DNA from: Flavobacteriales bacterium UBA1494
GTDB lineage: Bacteria; Bacteroidota; Bacteroidia; Flavobacteriales_E; Vicingaceae
Length of the DNA: 64,000 nucleotides
Direction: 5' to 3'
Assembly: GCA_905182175.1 (NCBI GenBank)
Contig: CAJJAT010000008.1
Span: 1-64,000 of the forward strand
Notes under the pieces: model-generated
The model's database searches: none
What the model was told of the DNA's origin: nothing
Seen by the model: only the letters and a program-made list of their open reading frames with translations
Position numbers and translations under genes: made by a program
Shown here: piece after piece, positions 21,467-53,853 of the stretch
How positions within the stretch are numbered: position 1 is the first letter of the stretch
How the letters are laid out: the number at the start of each line of letters is the position of its first letter

Positions 21467-21627
21467 GTGCAACCACAATCTCATAATGTTATTGGTTACG
21501 GAGACATGTTACAATGATTGGCATTCAATTGTTGGGGCTTAAATTCTACTGTCGTTTCGCATAAACTTTACAAGTTATTGACCGGCCTTAGCTAAGTTTG
21601 AATTATCGGTGTTTAGAAAATTGCGCA

Positions 21628-21790
21628 TTTCGACTCTGCTCAATGTGACAATGTTGACTTTGCTCGATGTGACATTTTAGGTTATATCAATGCAACAATT
21701 TACAGTTGACTTTTTATTAGATTACAGGTTAGGCCTAAGGGCCGACTTTAATTTGCTCAATATGACAGTTTAAATTAGCTCAATGTAACA
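21628..21790. repeat. Four degenerate copies of a GCTCAATGTGACA repeat
   Basis: Copies at 21628-21650 (the longest, beginning TTTCGACTCTGCTCAATG), 21659-21674, 21752-21767 and 21777-21790. A further related copy (TTCGACTCCGCTCAGCGCGA) occurs at 51320. Such words are common intergenic repeats in Bacteroidota. They fill the 21467-21884 gap between convergent meaB and ppx; no gene is seen there. Confidence 0.6.
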
Positions 21791-44418: not shown

Positions 44419-45897
44419 CTAAACTCTGTTGGCTCTCCATTTCGATTTTGAGACAGCGGCTAATGTTTCTGCAGTGGAACTTTTTGAATTCCCAACTAAA
44501 CTCGCAGCGACCAGTGCAGCGATTTCTTGCTCATCGTCCTTTTTAGTCTGTAAATATTCCGGCTTAAAGTGATTTTTTACAAAATTTGTATCAAAACTCC
44601 CTGAGATAAAAGCTTCATGCTCGAGTGTAAATCGGCAAAAATCCATTGTCGTTTTTACTCCTTTTATTTGATATTCATCAATTGCTCTCAACATTCTTTG
44701 TCTTGCAGTTTCTCTATCTTTTCCAAAAGTCACCAACTTGGCAATCATAGGATCGTAATAAATTGGAATCTCCATTCCTTCCTCAAAACCGTCGTCAACT
44801 CTCACTCCTAGTCCTTGCGGGCGAACATAGGTTTCTAAGGTTCCAATATCCGGTAAAAAATTATTCATCGGGTCCTCTGCATATACCCTAACTTCAAAAG
44901 AGTGACCTTGAATTTTTAAGTCATCTTGTGTAAACGCTAATTTTTCTCCACGAGCTACATTAATTTGTTCTCGCACCAAGTCAATTCCTGTAATTTGTTC
45001 TGTTACCGGGTGCTCCACTTGAAGCCTAGTATTCATCTCTAAGAAGAAAAAATTCAAGTTTTCATCTAACAAAAACTCAACGGTTCCTGCTCCAACGTAG
45101 TCACAAGATTTTGCAACCAACACAGCAGCTTCGCCCATCTGCTTTCGCAATTCAGGAGTAAGAACAGCAGACGGAGCTTCTTCAATTACTTTTTGGTGTC
45201 TCCGTTGAATAGAACATTCTCTTTCGAACAAATAAACAACGTTACCATGAGTGTCTGCCAATATTTGAATTTCAATGTGACGAGGCGAACCTACGTATCG
45301 TTCAATAAATACAGCTCCATCACCAAAAGAAGAAATCGCTTCGGAAACAGCTCTGTCCATTTGTTCTCTGAAGTCTTCTACTCGCTCAACAACTCTCATG
45401 CCTTTACCACCGCCGCCAGCACTGGCCTTTACCAAAATTGGAAAACCAATTTCTTGGGCAATTTTTTCAGCCTCACCAACATCTGTTACGGCCTCATCTG
45501 TTCCGGGAACCAGTGGAATATTATATTCCTTAACAGCTGCTTTTGCCGCTAACTTGCTCCCCATTACTTCCATCGCTTCAGGCGAAGGACCAATTAACGT
45601 AATTCCAGCATCACTTACTTTTCTAGCAAAGTCTGCATTTTCAGATAAGAATCCGTATCCGGGATGAATGCCATCTACATTCATCTCTTTGCTTAATTCA
45701 ATGATATAATCTCCTCTTAAATAAGATTCCGAAGATGCCGGAGGCCCAACACAAACGGCTTCATCAGCATAGCGAACGAACAAAGCGTTACGATCTGCTT
45801 CAGAATAAATAGCTACCGTTAAAATCCCCATTTCCTTGGCCGTTCGCATAATTCGCAAAGCAATCTCTCCTCGGTTAGCAATCAAAATCTTATTCAT
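44419..45897 (-). CDS. accC: Acetyl-CoA carboxylase biotin carboxylase subunit
   Basis: 492 aa from ATG 45897, where the canonical MNKILIANRGEIALRIMRTA begins; the open frame extends 29 codons upstream but those residues are not AccC-like. ATP-grasp motifs KASAGGGGKGM and EMNTRLQVEHPVTEQITGID are intact. It carboxylates biotin on AccB, the first step of fatty-acid synthesis. A C-terminal extension of about 45 residues beyond the E. coli enzyme (KKDDEQEIAALVAASLVGNS, then a Ser-rich linker) is typical of subunits of Bacteroidota acyl-CoA carboxylases. accB is not adjacent. TAATTTAG, a one-mismatch -7 box, lies 17 nt upstream. Confidence 0.93.
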   Translation of the reverse strand: MNKILIANRGEIALRIMRTAKEMGILTVAIYSEADRNALFVRYADEAVCVGPPASSESYLRGDYIIELSKEMNVDGIHPGYGFLSENADFARKVSDAGITLIGPSPEAMEVMGSKLAAKAAVKEYNIPLVPGTDEAVTDVGEAEKIAQEIGFPILVKASAGGGGKGMRVVERVEDFREQMDRAVSEAISSFGDGAVFIERYVGSPRHIEIQILADTHGNVVYLFERECSIQRRHQKVIEEAPSAVLTPELRKQMGEAAVLVAKSCDYVGAGTVEFLLDENLNFFFLEMNTRLQVEHPVTEQITGIDLVREQINVARGEKLAFTQDDLKIQGHSFEVRVYAEDPMNNFLPDIGTLETYVRPQGLGVRVDDGFEEGMEIPIYYDPMIAKLVTFGKDRETARQRMLRAIDEYQIKGVKTTMDFCRFTLEHEAFISGSFDTNFVKNHFKPEYLQTKKDDEQEIAALVAASLVGNSKSSTAETLAAVSKSKWRANRV

Positions 45898-46109
45898 ATC
45901 TATTAAGTTTTGCGCTAAATTAGTTCTTTTAGATAAAAGATAGTAAACCCTTTTACTCTTAAAAAAGAGACGTTGCTCTGCCATTCATAACCACATAACT
46001 CTGCTCAATAAACTAGCCTTAACAACGAGCAAAACGAGCTTTATGATTATTTAATTTTCGATAATTTTAGCTGAATTAAAACAACACAGATTCTAACACA
46101 CTACAAACA

Positions 46110-46583
46110 ATGAGCAAAACTTTTTTTCAAGAAAAACAGCGTTTTAATCAGTGGATAATTTGGCTTTTGGTTCTATCCATCGCCAGTCTTTCTATTTATC
46201 GTTTTTTTGAAAGCAATGGAGGAATGGAATTCTTAGTGCCTTTCATTATTATTGGTCTGGTTATTCTTCTTTTTCTAAGCTTACAGTTGCGAACCAAAAT
46301 TGACGAGGTTGGCATACATGTTCAGATGTTTCCGATTCATTTAAAACCTGTACTTTACACGTGGGAAAAACTAAAAAGTGTTGAAGTAGTTGAGTACAGC
46401 CCGCTCAAAGAGTATGGTGGTTGGGGAGTTCGGATTTCAGGTAATGGAAAAGCATTTAATGTAAAGGGAAACAAAGGAATTAAACTCCAAACTATCGATG
46501 GAAAAACTCGAATGATTGGAACTCAGAAAATGGAAGAGGCAAAAACATCAATTGGTCAATGGTTTAATCCGGCAACGAGTTGA
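46110..46583 (+). CDS. Membrane protein with PH-like domain (DUF6141-like)
   Basis: 157 aa. Two transmembrane helices (about residues 16-33 and 41-60) are followed by a cytoplasmic beta-rich domain (TKIDEVGIHVQMFP, YTWEKLKSVEVVEYSPLKEY, GGWGVRISGNGKAFNVKGNK) resembling bacterial PH-like domains. Family name is tentative. The gene is divergent from accC and has its own spacer on both sides. Confidence 0.7.
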   Translation: MSKTFFQEKQRFNQWIIWLLVLSIASLSIYRFFESNGGMEFLVPFIIIGLVILLFLSLQLRTKIDEVGIHVQMFPIHLKPVLYTWEKLKSVEVVEYSPLKEYGGWGVRISGNGKAFNVKGNKGIKLQTIDGKTRMIGTQKMEEAKTSIGQWFNPATS

Positions 46584-46771
46584 TTTAAAAATTCAATAAT
46601 CATTTAATTAAGCAATAATCTAACTTTTTACTACTTTAATTAAGCCATATATAATCAGGTAATTACACATTTTAGGCACCTCTAAATTTTTAGCATTTTC
46701 GTCATTTCCTAAGTTTAAAACCCTGTTCAACTTTAAACTCTAAGTACTTTTACTGCACAACTATTAAAAAA

Positions 46772-47470
46772 ATGCACCTATTTTATTCCACTAACATTTC
46801 AGAAAACACGATTACGTTAGACAATGAGGAGTCGAAGCATTTGGCAAAAGTACTGCGCCTTGAAATGGGAGATAACGTTCTCGTTATTGACGGAAAAGGT
46901 TCTCGTTACTTCTGCTCTATTCATTTGGCACACCAAAAGGCTTCTCAACTTACCATTATAGAAAAAGAGGTAGTGAACGAATTCTACGGAATTGAAATTG
47001 CTGCAGCCCCTACCAAAAACCTCAACCGATGGGAATGGTTTTTAGAAAAAACGACAGAAATTGGAATCGATGCTATTCACCCTATTGTAAGCTTCCACTC
47101 CGAACGAAAAGTACTCAAGAAAGACCGCCAAGAGCGAATTTTAGTAAGTGCCATGAAGCAGTCATACAAGACCAAACTACCACAGTTGAGCGAATTAGAA
47201 AAATTCAAGCAGTTTGTGAAAAGAGATTTTGATGGCAAAAAGTTTATTTGCCATTGTTACAATGATTTGCCAAAAAAGACCTTAAATGAAAGCTATAAAA
47301 AAGGTGAGAAAGCCTTACTTTTGATTGGGCCTGAAGGCGATTTTAGCAAAGAAGAAATTGGATTGGCCATGCAACAAGGCTTCGAGCCAATTGCACTTGG
47401 AGCAAGTCGATTAAGAACTGAAACCGCAGCTATTGTTGCCTGTCACACCATACATGTATTGAATGCGTAA
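46772..47470 (+). CDS. rsmE: 16S rRNA (uracil(1498)-N(3))-methyltransferase
   Basis: 232 aa, SPOUT-class methyltransferase. N-terminal PUA-like domain (NEESKHLAKVLRLEMGDNV) and the C-terminal knot with LLIGPEGDFSKEEI and LGASRLRTETAAIVA are typical of RsmE. It methylates U1498 of 16S rRNA with SAM. It overlaps the DUF4159 gene by 8 bp, and the THUMP-like methyltransferase follows, so three genes probably form one unit. TACTTTTA, a one-mismatch -7 box, lies about 20 nt upstream. Confidence 0.93.
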   Translation: MHLFYSTNISENTITLDNEESKHLAKVLRLEMGDNVLVIDGKGSRYFCSIHLAHQKASQLTIIEKEVVNEFYGIEIAAAPTKNLNRWEWFLEKTTEIGIDAIHPIVSFHSERKVLKKDRQERILVSAMKQSYKTKLPQLSELEKFKQFVKRDFDGKKFICHCYNDLPKKTLNESYKKGEKALLLIGPEGDFSKEEIGLAMQQGFEPIALGASRLRTETAAIVACHTIHVLNA

Positions 47471-48119
47471 ATTATTTTTCCTCTTACTTATTATTCCATT
47501 TACAGGCGTTGCGCAGGATGGGAATTTTCAAATTGCCATTTTAAAATACAACGGTGGCGGCGATTGGTACTCTAATTTAGAAACCTCTTTGCCCAACCTC
47601 ATTGATTTTTGCAACACCAATTTAAATACCACTATCAAAAAGGAACAAGCCATTGTTGAGCCTTCTAGCACAGAGTTGTTCGACTACCCTTTTGTGCACA
47701 TGACCGGACACGGCAATGTGGTATTTAACTTGGAAGAATCCGAGAATTTGAGAAGTTATTTAATGGCAGGTGGCTTTCTTCACATTGATGATAATTACGG
47801 TATAGATCAATTCATTCGCAGAGAAATAAAAAAAATATTTCCGAATGAAGAGTTAATCGAGATTCCTTTTTCTCACCCAATCTACCATCAAAAATTTTAC
47901 TTTAATAATGGGCTTCCTAAAATTCATGAGCACGATGGCGAAGCTCCCGTTGGCCTTGGAATTATAAAAGAAGGACGCTTGGTGCTTTTTTACAGTTCGG
48001 AATGTGACTTAGGTGATGGTTGGGAAGATCGTGAAATTCATAATGACTCAGAAGCGACTAGACTAAAAGCATTGAAAATGGGTGCAAACATTGTTTCATT
48101 TGTATTTTTAGGAGAATGA
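47463..48119 (+). CDS. DUF4159 domain exported protein
   Basis: 218 aa with signal peptide (about residues 1-17, cleavage near GVAQDG). The DUF4159 domain fills the rest: FQIAILKYNGGGDWYSNLET, FDYPFVHMTGHGNVVFN, LMAGGFLHIDDNYGIDQFIR, EIPFSHPIYHQKFYF. The fold is glutamine-amidotransferase-like but the family has no known enzyme activity. In many Bacteroidota it follows rsmE, as here (8-bp overlap), a conserved pairing without explanation. Confidence 0.9.
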   Translation: MRKLFFLLLIIPFTGVAQDGNFQIAILKYNGGGDWYSNLETSLPNLIDFCNTNLNTTIKKEQAIVEPSSTELFDYPFVHMTGHGNVVFNLEESENLRSYLMAGGFLHIDDNYGIDQFIRREIKKIFPNEELIEIPFSHPIYHQKFYFNNGLPKIHEHDGEAPVGLGIIKEGRLVLFYSSECDLGDGWEDREIHNDSEATRLKALKMGANIVSFVFLGE

Positions 48120-48151
48120 TTCTCCTTTTCTAAAAAGAATCTGACACTATT

Positions 48152-49300
48152 TTGAACAAGACCGTTTTAGGATTTATTGAAGAGCACTGTAATCGATCTA
48201 CAGCCGAACTTGCATTGCTATTGAGTAAAAAACCTGAACTGCCAAAAGCTTTTATTCTGAATCAAATTAACGGATTCCAAAAGGCAAAACAAAAACTTCC
48301 ATTTTTATTAGAATTTGAGAATTTTATTTACCCCAGTGCACTAGCTTTTTCACAAGCCTCTTCTGAAAAAACGGGAAAGTATAAGGCAAAAATCCTAAAC
48401 GTAAAAAAAGTGTTAGACCTCAGCGGAGGAATGGGAATAGACAGTTACTTTTTTGCACTATTTACAGAAGAAGTCACATACATTGATATGAATGAAGAAC
48501 TAGTGCAAACTGTTCGTTCAAACTTTGAAACTCTAAAAACAAATAACATCTCGTGTATACATGCGAAAGCAGAGGACTTTATATTGCAAGGCAATAATCG
48601 TTATAACCTGGTTTACCTCGACCCAGATCGTAGAGCTGCGAAGGAAAAAGCTTTTAAAATTGACGATTGTGAACCGAATGTAGCCGAATTAATTCCTCAT
48701 ATTTGGCAGAAGTCGAAGCAGTGTTTAATTAAACTATCTCCTATGCTCGATATTCAGCAAGCGCTAACTCAATTGCCTTTTTGCAAGGAAGTGCATGTGG
48801 TATCGGTAGACAATGATTGCAAAGAGTTGTTGTTTCTGTTGGAATATGGGTTTGAAAATCCTCCACTAATTCAATGCATTAACATTCAAAAACAAAACAC
48901 GCAACACTTTGAATTTAACTTTGAGCAAGAGCGTTCCACAAACAATGCGTTAGGCGAAGTACAGAGTTATTTATACGAACCAAATGCCTCCATTTTAAAA
49001 GCAGGAGCATTTAAAACTCTAGGTCAAAAATTTGGACTCACAAAATTGGGAACCAATACTCACTTATACACCTCTGCTAACGTACAAAGCAACTTTCCGG
49101 GTAGGATCCTAAAAGTTTTGGAAGTCTCAAAACCTAAGAAAGGATTGACTCAACAGGCCAATGTTGTTTGCAGAAATTTTAGCATGAAACCCGAGCAACT
49201 GAAGAAAAAATATAACATTAAGGATGGCGGAAAGCAGTTTTTGTATGCCTTTAGTTTGGAAGATGGAAGTAGGAATTTTGTATTAGGAGAATTAGTTTAG
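48152..49300 (+). CDS. THUMP-like domain class I SAM methyltransferase
   Basis: 382 aa. An N-terminal helical part (about 1-80) precedes a Rossmann methyltransferase with motif I VLDLSGGMGIDSYFFA, acidic loop YIDMN, and a catalytic-loop YLDPDRR; the C-terminal part corresponds to the THUMP-like domain (LKAGAFKTLGQKFGLTKLG). Similar proteins are predicted RNA methyltransferases. Start is TTG at 48152; no ATG is available before the conserved region. It follows the DUF4159 gene after 32 nt and ends the rsmE unit. Confidence 0.85.
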   Translation: MNKTVLGFIEEHCNRSTAELALLLSKKPELPKAFILNQINGFQKAKQKLPFLLEFENFIYPSALAFSQASSEKTGKYKAKILNVKKVLDLSGGMGIDSYFFALFTEEVTYIDMNEELVQTVRSNFETLKTNNISCIHAKAEDFILQGNNRYNLVYLDPDRRAAKEKAFKIDDCEPNVAELIPHIWQKSKQCLIKLSPMLDIQQALTQLPFCKEVHVVSVDNDCKELLFLLEYGFENPPLIQCINIQKQNTQHFEFNFEQERSTNNALGEVQSYLYEPNASILKAGAFKTLGQKFGLTKLGTNTHLYTSANVQSNFPGRILKVLEVSKPKKGLTQQANVVCRNFSMKPEQLKKKYNIKDGGKQFLYAFSLEDGSRNFVLGELV

Positions 49301-49329
49301 ATTGATTCTATTGTCGCTGTGCTTTGAAG

Positions 49330-49420
49330 TGAGGCAACCTGCTTAATAAGCTAAGATCGCTTTCCGCCTACTCTGCGCTGCGTGCGGAAAAGTCTGCCTC
49401 GATGACGTTTTTCTTCAGAA
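49330..49420. repeat. Imperfect palindromic element
   Basis: GAGGCA at about 49331 is matched inversely by TGCCTC at about 49395, and TTTCCGC at about 49360 by GCGGAAA at about 49383. Nested inverted arms around a GC-rich centre suggest a small palindromic repeat between the rsmE unit and the T9SS gene cluster. Confidence 0.45.
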
Positions 49421-49446
49421 TTGTAAGCAATAAGAGCTGAAGCAAT

Positions 49447-49662
49447 CTACTGAACAACTAACTTCCCACTCACAGATTCTGATTCTTTCAACGCACTCCT
49501 AATTTGATAAAAGTAAGTGCCACTTTTCAAATTAGAAATATTTATACAATGTGTTGAGCTTTCTATTAGTTTCTGTCGGCTAACTAACGTTCCAGTTGCA
49601 TTGTAAATAACTAGATGTTCATTTTGTTTCATATGATCTGTTTTATTCATGTTAAAAGACAT
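49447..49662 (-). pseudogene. Orphan T9SS sorting-domain fragment
   Basis: 71 codons that encode only the last part of a T9SS type A domain: NEHLVIYNATGTLVSRQKLI, NISNLKSGTYFYQIRSALKE and SGKLVVQ. No signal peptide and no cargo part exist upstream; the frame runs directly into the 3' end of the next T9SS gene. A 3' fragment left by deletion or recombination. Confidence 0.65.
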
Positions 49663-49676
49663 GTCTTTTTTTGATC

Positions 49677-51282
49677 TTACTGTTTTATAATCTTCTTCGT
49701 CAAAACCACTCCGTTTTTTAAAACTACTTTCAGAAAATAGATTCCATTGTCCAAATTTGTCAGGTCGAGTGATTTCAACCGGGCATCTCGGTACATTTTT
49801 TCGGTCGCCGAGTGATTCAAACTTTGTTTGGATTGTATCGAGGCGTCCGAAAAAACACTCGATGACCAGTTGAAATTATATTCCTTAAAACCTTTCACCA
49901 ATCGAGACCCCCTCAAATCAAAAACCTCAATTGTTTTTATTTCAGCTTCACTTTCAATGGCAACCATACCATTCGAAGGGTTTGGATAAACCGAAACCTC
50001 ACTTCTCGGCTCCGCTCGAAGACCGGTTTCATCAATACCCACAGGTATGCCGCCGTTTAACCCTGTTATTTTAATAAGTGGTTGACTTGCTTGCCCATCC
50101 CATTTTAAAAAGTTACCGCCTACATAATACCCGCCAAACTTTGAGGGAATGATCGCTGACACCAAACCTTGAAAAAGAGCAAAAGAAAACTGATCAGCAC
50201 TATCAGGACCTGCGGTTGTAAAGTATTGTGGCTCTAAAACTCCGTTTGAATCTAACTTAACTATTGATTTCTTCTGAACCCCCTTGATAATGTGTAAAAT
50301 AACCTCCAACTAAATAGCCCTTATCGGGAGTTTCAACTATGGTTGATGTTCCTTGAAAGCCATTTAGTGCAAAAGCACCATTACGATATTGAAACGAGGC
50401 ATCAATTTGGCCATTTGGCATAAGCCTTACTAAATAAGTCCTATTAGTATCGCCTCTTAAAAAATAGGTTCCCAATATAAAAATACGACCAGCGCTATCT
50501 GCTGATGTAGTGCCATAAGTGCCTCCTGAAATATTAGGATTTATTGGAGAAGTAAAAGTTGTATCTAATGTACCGTCTAAGTAAATGCGGCACATTCCTT
50601 CAATAGGAATACTATCGTAATGCGAAAAACGCAGCGGGTTGCCGTAAATAATTATTCGGTTGCTATCGTACCGCACAAATCCCTCGGGCTGACCATAAGT
50701 TGCATCGTGATTAAAGGTACTGTCCCACAAGCCTTGGGGGGTTAGTTTAATAATGTGCCTGCCGGGGAAAGTATCTGTGCCCTGAATAATTTTGCAGGCC
50801 TTACCGCTGTTGTCTCTACCATTCGCAAATAATGAGGAGCCGTCGGGGAAGATTAAAGCATTGCCACTGCATCTTACTGCACCTATTTTATTTTGACCCC
50901 AATTAGTTGAAAGCAGATTCGTATTTCCTAAGGTTTCAATAAATCCTATCCCTGTACTACCAAATGTAACTAATCTATTTGCACTATACCTTTCAATACC
51001 TCCAATCGAATTAAACCCAACAAAACTAAATGGAAGAGAAGGACTTCCGTCGTCCTTGCAAGTAATAATATTGCGAAAGAAAGAACTGCCCAAGGTTGTT
51101 GAAAAATTACCTACCCCATACAACCGTCCATTGTTGGAATCTTCATATAAACCGTTAACAATAGTTCCTCTTCCCGCTCGTATATCAAAAAAAGGCTGAA
51201 AAGTAGTATCCAACACAAAGGATTGTGCAGTACTGCCCAATCCTAAGAGTATGAATAGACCGATGATGAGTATTTTTTTCAT
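49677..51282 (-). pseudogene. T9SS cargo protein, frameshifted, with an in-frame palindrome
   Basis: Signal peptide and delta-60-type repeats (LDTTFQPFFD, LWDSTFNHDA, LDTTFTSPIN, IDASFQYRNG) run from ATG 51282 to a stop at 50257. The protein continues in another frame (VQKKSIVKLDSNGVLEPQYF to KKIIKQ) ending at 49677. The shift lies in a run of five C (five G on the coding strand) at 50279-50283: with one base less, THYQG joins VQKKS correctly. The T9SS domain (VSVYPNPSNG, IEVFDLRGSRLVKGFKEYNF, LDLTNLDNGIYFLKVVLKNG) is interrupted by about 33 extra residues encoded by the palindrome at 49773-49875. Confidence 0.8.
49773..49875. mobile_element. 103-bp MITE-like palindrome inside a T9SS sorting domain
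   Basis: Outer arms TTTCAAC (49773-49779) and GTTGAAA (49869-49875), continued as TTTCAAC-n-GG-n-CATC on both sides. Inner arms TTTTTTCGG-n-CGCC and GGCG-n-CCGAAAAAA. The whole element can fold into one hairpin. It keeps the reading frame and adds about 33 residues within the last 70 of the protein. No transposase is encoded, so a non-autonomous palindromic element is the best description. Confidence 0.7.
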
Positions 51283-51319
51283 GGTTTTGTTTTTATTTTA
51301 ACCCGATTGCTTTGTGCAC

Positions 51320-51341
51320 TTCGACTCCGCTCAGCGCGACA
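51320..51341. repeat. Copy of the TTCGACTCCGCTCA repeat
   Basis: TTCGACTCCGCTCAGCGCGA plus CA, related to the copies at 21628-21790. Lies between two broken T9SS genes. Confidence 0.55.
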
Positions 51342-51361
51342 AAGTAATGAGGTTTTAATTG

Positions 51362-51455
51362 GTCATTGCGAGGAACGCTTGTCCGCCATTTTAGGTGGGA
51401 AGAAATCGGTTTTATCATACCAGATTGCCGCACTCCTATCATCGTTCGCAATGAC
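51362..51455. repeat. 94-bp inverted-repeat element (GTCATTGCGAGGAACG)
   Basis: GTCATTGCGAGGAACG at 51362-51377 is matched inversely by CGTTCGCAATGAC at 51443-51455, with a three-base difference. Elements starting with GTCATTGCGAGG are widespread in several phyla. A third degenerate copy (GTCATTACAAGCGAAGCG) is at 51497-51535, reaching the stop of the next T9SS gene. Confidence 0.65.
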
Positions 51456-51535
51456 AGTTTGATTTGTCCTTTTCGCTTTGCCATGACTTTACTGTTCGTC
51501 ATTACAAGCGAAGCGCAACGCAGTAAAGTAATCTG

Positions 51536-52446
51536 TTATTGTTTTAAAACTTTCCTCACTACCAATTCTCCTCCTTTCAAATGTACTTTTATAAAGTAAA
51601 CGCCCGGTGCGTTTGGCAATTCTACAGCAGTTGCAATGCTAAGTGGAGTTAAAGTAAACAGCAGATTTCCAGCTAAGCTATGCACCTCAAGGGTCTCTAT
51701 ATTTAACTCACTCTCAATGTTTATTATTCCTTTTGTTGGGTTGGGAGAGATTCTAACTTCCAATTCAGATTCGGAAATTTTATTTGTATTCAAACCCGTA
51801 ATTAGCTGACAAGTGCCTACAGTGTTAGTATAAACATTTTGTCCATTGTTTGTAAAACAGTAGAGTATTCCTGTCTGCCAAGGATCACATATATTGTAAT
51901 CGCCTAACAAACCTTGATTTGAACCAATTCCTTCTATCAATCTTAGGCTGTCCGTGTTAAAAATTGAGCAATTGTTAAAAGTCAATCTTCTTCTAAATAT
52001 TCCACCTAAGAAGATACTATCAACTCTCGAAACTACCAATGGTACATTGGATTGATTATGAATGCGTTTGTATGAAATTGGCAATGTGTCACCAACAAAT
52101 AAATTGAAGTCATAAAGCAAAGTATCTCGATTGTGGTTAGGAGGTAAAAAATAAATTCTTTTGTTTACACTATCGTTGCGGAATGCCCCAGCATAATAAC
52201 CATATATACTAAAGCTATTTGTATTAGAACAACCAGTCGCTCCTTGAGTATATGCTTTTGTATTTAAATAGACTCCACGATAAACAACTCCGTTAACAAC
52301 AGTATCCCCAACTAATTCGTAATGATGTTCATCACAAAAACTATATCAATCCAAGAAGCATTTGAAGTTGGAAATGGCTCGTAAGTTTGAGCAAAATAAC
52401 CAAGACTCATTGTCCCCAAAATAAATAGTAGTAGTACCTTTTTCAT
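51536..52446 (-). pseudogene. T9SS cargo protein, frameshifted near its N-terminus
   Basis: ATG 52446 starts a good signal peptide (MKKVLLLFILGTMSLGYFAQ, then TYEPFPTSNASWID). After about 52345 the frame shifts to YSFCDEHHYELVGDTVVNGV, VYRGVYLNTKAYTQG, RIYFLPPNHNRDTLLYDFNL and on to the T9SS domain (VRISPNPTKGIINIESELNI, PNAPGVYFIKVHLKGGELVV, RKVLKQ) at 51536. The body resembles small surface proteins with a sequence xxxFCDxxHYELxGDTxxNGxxY seen elsewhere in Bacteroidota. A single shift is visible, so inactivation may be recent. Confidence 0.75.
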
Positions 52447-52451
52447 AATAG

Positions 52452-53853
52452 TTATTCTTTAATCACTTTTTTGGTAAACACCTCTCCGTTTTTCATATGT
52501 AATTTCAAGAGGTAAATCCCTTTTTTTCGGTTGGTGAGGTTGATTTTGTTCACACTTCGACTATTACTCAGTATGAAAAAATCCTGTATCACAGCGCCTT
52601 TCAAATCAAACAATTCCACCCTGTCCAAACCTTCAATCTGCGGAATATTCACCACATCTTTAGTTGGATTAGGGTACACCTTCATATCAGGAGTAACTTC
52701 TTTAAAACCTGAATTAAGGCTTGTAATTAAACCATTGGTATCCGTTTTTAACACAAAAACATCATTTCCTGTGCCGCCTGGGGCGTTTAAAATAAAACCC
52801 GTCATGGCAAAACCACCATCTGAAGTTACAATCAAGTCTCTTACGTATTGATTTATATCTAAACCGTGGTAGTTGTAATCTCTACTCCACAATAAATTAC
52901 CTGCACTATCCAGCATGCTCAAGTTTATATCATCAACTTGCAGTCCGTTGTACATTCTAATACTTGAGCCTGCGCAAATAAAATTACCATTGGGCAACTC
53001 TTTCCCTACATTGTAACCCTCGTCTAAATTATTAATGCCGTGCTTTCGACGCCAAATTAAATTACCAGCTTGATCTATTTTTAAAATAGCACGTTGTGCA
53101 CCTTGTGGGTGATACCCCGGACCAAACAAAGCATAATTGCCATCATGTAACACCTCTACATGCCCTTTTTTTTGACTGAGTAATTCATGGTAATATTTTT
53201 TCCATACCAAGTTGCCAACACTGTCTACCTTTGTTAAAAATAAATCTAAATGCCCACCCGGTGTTTCTTCTTCTACTGCGCTAAAAACATAACCGCCAGC
53301 TGCTGTGGCTTGCAAGTTTACAATAGTGGCATCAAAACCTAGTTTGCTGTGCGTTTTAAACCACAATACATTGCCTAAGGTATCTATGTTGGCAACATAA
53401 GGCTTACGCTCAGCAGGAATGGTATCTGTATAAAACCCATAGACAATAAAAGTACTGTCTGCTTTTAAATGCATATCATGGATACGATCATTAAAGGCAA
53501 AGTTCGAAGAAACTGTTCTTAGTGTATCCCCCATTAAATTCATTTTCAACAAGTAACTATCTGCCGCCCCTTCTATTGGATTATATTGAGCTCCATAACC
53601 GTAATAAGAATTTCCGTTTTTTAACCCGCCATTAAAGGAAGGGTTAGAAACATAGGAATAATTTAAATGGATGGGAGATGACCCCATAGAATCTACAAAT
53701 AGAATCTTTGCTCCTCTTATTCCTCTTGTAGTATTTCCAAATATTACGAGATTAGATAATTGATTAGATTCAAGTATAACAATTCCAAAATCATTTTGAT
53801 TATTGTAATCATAAGTAGAATAAAAACAAGAAGATGTAAAAAAGGTATTTCAT
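52452..53853 (-). pseudogene. T9SS cargo protein with lost signal-peptide frame
   Basis: ATG 53853 begins MKYLFYIFLFLFYL and stops; the following codons in another frame give YSTYDYNNQNDFGIVILESN, IFGNTTRGIRGAKILFVDSM and then a long open frame (from 53687 as ATG, 411 aa) with repeats LxKMxxxGDTL, NIDTLGNVLWFKTHSKLG, KVDSVGNLVWKKYYHELL, MLDSAGNLLWSRDYNYHG and a full T9SS domain (KVYPNPTKDVVNIPQIEGLD, KGIYLLKLHMKNGEVF, TKKVIKE). Without the shift in or just after the signal peptide (about 53810-53840) the protein would be complete. As it stands the 411-aa product would lack a secretion signal. Confidence 0.7.

Follow-up and report, generated by a model that had tools for sequence, protein, structure and literature searches.

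A probable stack of tagged REP hairpins in a type IX sorting domain of a Flavobacteriales bacterium

How can a long palindrome lie inside a protein-coding frame and leave that frame open? The question is raised by a locus of Flavobacteriales bacterium UBA1494, found in a stretch of 64,000 nt of contig CAJJAT010000008.1 (assembly GCA_905182175.1), which is referred to here as the window; the genome to which it belongs (G000) comprises 3.33 Mb. A palindrome at 49773-49875 of the window belongs, on the minus strand, to the ORF at 49677-50309, to which it adds about 33 residues (FNWSSS...DARLK) between KGFKEYN and SLDLTNLDNG of a T9SS sorting domain. Our reading, to which we give a probability of roughly 0.8, is that tagged REP hairpins are stacked here, having entered a permissive loop of the sorting domain in frame, and that they were moved by an activity other than a recognisable RAYT of their own genome. 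The features of the locus are summarized in Table 1.

Table 1. Features of the locus, with positions in the window
Feature	Position	Strand	Description
N-terminal ORF, 341 aa	50257-51282	-	DUF5122 beta-propeller repeat; same gene as the C-terminal ORF, in another frame
Homopolymer run	50279-50283	-	C on the plus strand, G on the coding strand; the two frames diverge in this zone
C-terminal ORF, 210 aa	49677-50309	-	T9SS type A sorting domain; insert = residues 147-179
Outermost REP (probable)	49756-49911	+	encloses the middle and inner REPs; makes up most of the domain loop
Outermost REP, head	49756-49771		TTTGTCA-GGTC-GAGTG
Outermost REP, stem	49772-49782 with 49866-49876		ATTTCAACCGG with CCAGTTGAAAT
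Outermost REP, tail	49898-49909		CCAATCGAGACC; degenerate
Nested part	49773-49868	.	core of the palindrome, 96 nt; in frame, absent from homologues
Middle REP	49784-49867	-	contains the inner REP; the two run in opposite directions
Middle REP, head	within 49856-49867		GTCATCGAGTG
Middle REP, stem	49847-49855 with 49796-49804		TTTTTTCGG/CCGAAAAAA, 9 bp
Middle REP, tail	49784-49795		TGTACCGAGATG
Inner REP	49803-49845	+	GTCGC-CGAGTGATTCAAAC-TTT-GTTTGGATTGTATCGAG-GCG; exact family pattern

An insert in the sorting domain

A preliminary description of the locus spoke of a near-perfect palindrome of 103 bp. The palindrome is indeed there, and the stretch 49766-49882 folds far better than shuffled sequence, both as RNA (-38.6 kcal/mol, z -4.97) and as DNA (z -5.10), with none of 200 shuffles as good in either case. 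"Near-perfect", however, overstates it: in the fold, an outer stem of 11 bp is followed by several stems with interruptions, and the tip forms a hairpin of its own, while a repeat tool returned a single 14-nt arm pair (93%). Judged by eye, the outer arms of the palindrome, TTTCAAC/GTTGAAA, resemble an integron attC site, an element marked by conserved core sites and accompanied by an integrase and an array of cassettes. Nor is the 103-bp unit what repeats, as had been supposed. The whole unit occurs once in the 3.33-Mb genome; 99 other relatives gave no full match, and plasmids gave no match at all. One central fragment only was matched, in G030, and this match was the entry point to a family of smaller REP hairpins, which are the repeating unit.

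NCBIfam TIGR04183 recognizes the sorting domain as two stretches, and Pfam PF18962 aligns 102 of its residues to 75 profile positions. At E up to 1e-8, 11 of 60 genomes have a homologue of the gene, the genome of the window being one of them. In nine of the others (G002, G012, G013, G015, G019, G024, the distant G035, G047 and G053) the sorting domains are without the extra residues, which confirms the earlier reading of an in-frame insert; the nested part comes to 99 nt, or 33 codons, if the cut is set at the best homologue alignment. Removal of duplicates and of domains lacking a PNP motif reduced 76 HMM matches to 41, and in 38 of these the distance from PNP to the end is 60-89 aa. The window domain has 103 and that of the eleventh homologue, L201 of the congeneric G001, has 102; a third long domain was rejected as an artefact of an upstream PNP. 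Structure prediction from four sequences gave a weak model (mean pLDDT 45.5), in which the stretch 142-176, most of the insert, has pLDDT below 50 and is placed between predicted strands at 136-139 and 178-182.

Two further observations concern the same gene family. Directly downstream of the host gene, at 49447-49662 on the minus strand, a lone ORF of 71 aa consists of a T9SS sorting domain only, without an upstream secreted protein, and is perhaps a gene remnant. In G015 (C9:839419-846469), five homologues of the secreted beta-propeller gene stand in tandem, with nearly identical sorting domains.

A family of tagged hairpins

The palindrome is built from tagged REP hairpins with a head GTCA..GAGTG, a tail TGTATCGA and a variable, covarying stem. 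The family pattern CTCGATACAAT-N6..36-AATCACTCG matched 23 of 395 genomes of the class and none in the reversed control. In a scan of named genomes the family occurred in at least 119 stretches, nearly all of them labelled Flavobacteriia or other Bacteroidota. One contig labelled as a Klebsiella pneumoniae MAG (L128, CALPPA020000238.1) also has a REP of this family, otherwise seen in Bacteroidota, and is probably wrongly labelled or mis-binned.

We read 160 units, 159 from loci of the named-genome scan (among the matches listed) and one from a further locus, L192. Their consensus is YGTCA-N-TTCGAGTGATT-stem-AATTGTATCGAGAA-N'. The core was fixed by the search pattern, so that only the tag, the pair N:N' and the stem are informative. 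The GTCA tag is present in 150 of the 160 units, and the base before it is C or T in 155 of 159 (among the matches listed); N and N' are complementary in 140 of 160 (G-C, C-G, A-T or T-A; 68 + 54 + 14 + 4). Across 35 aligned units, 99.0% of cells are paired as against 88.7% in shuffles, and there are 41 double-change cells as against 11.5, with 0 of 500 shuffles as high in either measure. Two of the five covariation measures were unremarkable, namely double-change pairs (463 of 500 shuffles as high) and further pair types (47 of 500). The family is one of tagged REPs.

It is not, as the preliminary description had proposed, a repeat type that spreads in reading frames. Elsewhere, an ORF test at 120 aa placed 148 of 158 copies between genes; five overlap the end of an ORF, and the remaining five lie inside ORFs judged spurious; in the window's own genome, the other sites or groups (seven of seven) touch no ORF of at least 100 aa with a start codon. 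The exact pattern reaches at most seven copies per genome. In three of 159 other REPs (L051, L095 and L163) the loop contains a repeat that belongs, by motif, to another REP class. The notion that palindromes are targeted as a family-wide rule was tried and rejected, the mean flank complementarity over 157 sites being 5.02 versus 5.12 in swapped flanks.

The genome of the window has about ten REP sites, found on contigs C1, C8 (the window), C9, C11 (three), C14 (two), C23 and C26. The tagged pattern occurs there in six places versus one in the control. A covariance model scored 150 of 4749 candidates in this genome, so that degenerate copies are sampled in part. On that basis it gave ten matches at E up to 10: four at E below 0.01 (C26, C11 twice, C9), the inner REP of the window (26.9 bits; E 0.012 in the whole genome, 0.00023 in the window) and five weaker ones. 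One of these five, at G000:C1:170829 (E 0.11), was set aside as chance; it sits in an ORF that we take from its translation to be rsmG-like. A scan for head, tail and stem, over 458 kb made up of the window and 20 stretches, found 13 pairings versus none in the reversed sequence, a count that is not an estimate of density because several of the stretches were picked for known matches. Twelve of the pairings are at REP sites, some of them joining neighbouring units, and one was judged chance.

Some sites of this genome differ in layout. At 21625-21673 of the window, on the minus strand, two tandem hairpin units (GTCACATCGAGC.. and GTCACATTGAGCAGAGTCGAAATG) resemble REPs but belong to a simpler class. 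At G000:C26:9237-9279 (L048, L218), a REP core without the GTCA tag is flanked by long arms that complement each other (CAAAACCTAG..CTAGGTTTTG); it stands downstream of a gene named selD-like from its translation and resembles a terminator hairpin with a REP at its tip. At G000:C14:207435-207700 (L247 10430-10720), a REP and a REP-like unit repeated in tandem stand upstream of a 332-aa ORF.

State of the host gene and depth of the stack

L201, the eleventh homologue, is the closest to the window gene (44% identity in the N-terminal part), and their orthology rests on similarity. At the same spot of its sorting domain it has an in-frame linker of 45 aa, which corresponds to two REP-like hairpin segments. 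The first of these (62 nt) was equalled in its match to REPs by one of 1500 shuffles by mean score and by none by best score. The second has a hairpin fold of z -2.86 and was likewise equalled by 0 of 1500 shuffles by best score, but by mean score it is not REP-like (224 of 1500 as high). The REPs of the window and L201 resemble each other more closely than any of 5000 shuffles, but so high a score is also reached by 22 of 258 other REPs, so that a single ancestral insertion in the two genes is not proven.

Where full-length homologues are free of lesions, the gene is a single frame of 494-517 aa. The window gene is split over two frames that part near its homopolymer run, L201 has one in-frame TGA, and the homologue in G002 has one TGA and one TAA. 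With lesions in all three congeneric copies, the ORF that contains the insert is a predicted protein whose open frame may be a relic. The palindrome could then be a matter of decay: REPs would have landed in a dead gene, and the open frame would be luck. In favour of this, the REPs of the family have on average 43% of their frames open and at least one open frame in 95% of cases. Against this, the sorting domain runs uninterrupted to its stop codon in both the window and L201, with similar residues flanking the linker, and the one frame of six that is open through the L201 linker is the coding frame. In addition, the lesions of the window and L201 genes are single and could be assembly errors. 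We regard decay in a pseudogene as a serious possibility, though a somewhat improbable one.

How many REPs are stacked in the window locus depends on the outermost layer, which we infer to be a true REP. Its GGTC and GACC are complementary, and its tag, TGTCA, fits YGTCA; the tags of the middle (GGTCA) and inner (GGTCG) REPs deviate. Once the nested 96 nt are removed, the outer REP measures 62 nt, as does the first REP of L201, and compared with 258 REPs these 62 nt reach a mean score of 8.15, the best of 1500 shuffles reaching 4.8.

Enclosure of one REP by another was tested in two ways, both designed after the layers had been noticed by eye. When a stem was required, two of 246 REPs lay inside another core of the family, both in the genome of the window; swapped flanks gave no case in 50 rounds, and shuffled flanks gave 0 of 300,000 for each of the two cases. 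With a longer core and no stem required, one of 190 REPs was enclosed, namely that of the window; here swapped flanks gave a mean of 0.035 (at most 1), and shuffles of the window flanks gave 2 of 200,000. The same genome holds a second stack, near 69.7 kb of C1, in which three REP layers of alternating orientation lie in an intergenic region (DNA fold z -6.64).

The alternative is that only the middle and inner REPs are real, as a pair flanked by native codons, ..EYN on one side and SLDLTNL on the other. The outer stem would then belong to the middle REP, and the head at 49756-49774 would be coding sequence that looks like a REP head by chance. The outer head does overlap the codons for SLDLTNL, which are plausible as native sorting-domain sequence and resemble a motif of the homologues, and the outer tail is degraded, so two layers plus a coincidence are possible. 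It also fits that the linker minus 33 residues has the length found in L204 and L211, and that the REP on C26 has long arms outside its core. But all 1500 shuffles of the outer 62 nt fall short in the REP match, and the C1 stack has a clear third layer. The outer head (17 nt, one mismatch) is moreover the sole site within three mismatches in 64 kb, about one being expected at that looseness. At the window locus we consider three layers more likely than two, and the two-layer reading rather unlikely.

Proposed movement of the hairpins and relation to known repeats

On the preferred reading of a three-layered stack, the outer REP would have landed in the sorting-domain loop, antisense to the gene; a second REP would have inserted into it in the other orientation, and a third, reversed again, into the loop of the second. 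The units are non-autonomous hairpin repeats, in line with the original view of a non-autonomous palindromic repeat inside a reading frame; they would be mobile, and their mover would be something other than a recognisable RAYT of this genome. They would stay in the gene because none of the insertions shifted the frame or brought in an in-frame stop, and because all that grew was a loop; the protein would presumably tolerate them and draw no benefit from them. A bolder version holds that in this genus a REP prefers other REPs as its insertion site, with orientations that alternate, building self-targeting, Russian-doll palindromes without a RAYT and letting a protein loop grow by in-frame accretion. 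A first REP in a permissive loop of a gene would then attract later insertions to the same place. We offer this version as speculation, with the odds against it.

A RAYT-type transposase, for which a search had been suggested, was not found: no Y1_Tnp gene is present in the window's own genome, at 96% completeness. A RAYT might still have moved the REPs and been lost since, an account with which the REP architecture of tag plus hairpin agrees, as does the presence of Y1_Tnp in 17 of the 23 pattern-positive genomes of the class. Yet Y1_Tnp is absent from the other six (G000, G095, G176, G196, G285 and G369), and one of these, G176, is a single-contig genome rated 100% complete. Furthermore, among 30 Y1 loci that were fetched, a subset of the Y1 matches with flanks of at most 1.5 kb, a REP core lies near one (L192) and a head alone near one more (L169). 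A lost RAYT is accordingly doubtful in our view. A role of the long hairpin as functional RNA or terminator, which its strong fold and the terminator-like position of the C26 copy downstream of a gene might suggest, is highly improbable, given that the palindrome lies inside an open frame, that 16 REP loci gave no Rfam family at gathering score, and that Rfam matches over 45000-53000 of the window were two in number and sub-threshold, the one over the palindrome being ceN43 (26.1 bits versus a gathering score of 50).

Among known repeats, the closest relatives in kind are the CGTC/TGTC-tagged REPs of Di Nocera et al. (2013; PMC3733652). According to that paper, these have an unpaired (C/T)GTC tag on a short stem-loop, are mostly intergenic, are reported in Bacteroidetes, and have no dedicated transposase, the spread of the CGTC repeats being unexplained. 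The present family shares the unpaired YGTC tag, the dispersed and mostly intergenic copies and the lack of a dedicated transposase. In contrast to the 8-9 bp stem, 4-5 nt loop and CCA-like tail of those REPs, its stem and loop vary in length, the stem being longer and interrupted by a bulge and an internal loop (GTG / TGTA); no CCA consensus follows the tail, and REP is nested in REP. A further trait of CGTC/TGTC-tagged REPs is a high copy number per genome; the window's genome has about ten sites, with 150 of 4749 candidates scored. GTAG REPs (PMC6006769) likewise have a tag followed by an imperfect hairpin, but their tag is GTAG or GTGG and they have a cognate RAYT that they flank; here the tag is GTCA and the genome has no RAYT.

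REPs inside ORFs are themselves not new. GTAG and CGTC REPs lie within ORFs of several species, and the CGTC-tagged REPs of R. conorii are equated with RPE-4 and RPE-6 (PMC3733652). In Rickettsia orthologues, RPEs are inserted at the same sites, with the frame kept and in solvent-exposed areas, and RPE-4, RPE-6 and RPE-7 frequently contain ATGAC, the complement of GTCAT (PMC3767692, on R. japonica). The comparison with Rickettsia palindromic elements drawn in the preliminary description is therefore apt in kind, since in-frame REPs and same-site RPE inserts are already in print; the YGTCA tag matches as well. Both systems have coding insertions that keep the frame at the same site in orthologues, here the window gene and L201, both with lesions upstream. 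They differ in that the phylum is another one and the position inside a gene is the exception here, and the likeness is one of tag and placement.

REPINs are inverted doublets of REPs. The units described here are nested and not side by side.

A REP in the middle of a palindrome is known from the CGTC-1 dimers of H. neapolitanus and from GTAG-23 of T. roseum (PMC3733652), but in our case the palindrome around the REP is a member of that REP's own family, oriented the other way, and the nesting probably goes two levels deep. A search of the open-licence literature for nesting of REPs or for T9SS together with palindromes returned nothing to the point among the papers listed, a search by the letters of the REP core returned unrelated papers among those listed, and neither PMC3733652 nor PMC12306157 contains the word "nested". 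As far as that literature shows, the novelty lies in the stacking of REPs inside REPs, in a T9SS domain as host and in the site shared by two genes of Bacteroidota, the lineage in which this in-frame case occurs.

The presence of two such stacks in a single genome is a concrete trace of repeated insertion of a repeat into a repeat, and one that can be dated by comparison of strains. The inserts at the same site in two congeners suggest, in turn, that a secretion-signal domain of Bacteroidota accepts residues encoded by REPs, as Rickettsia proteins accept RPEs.
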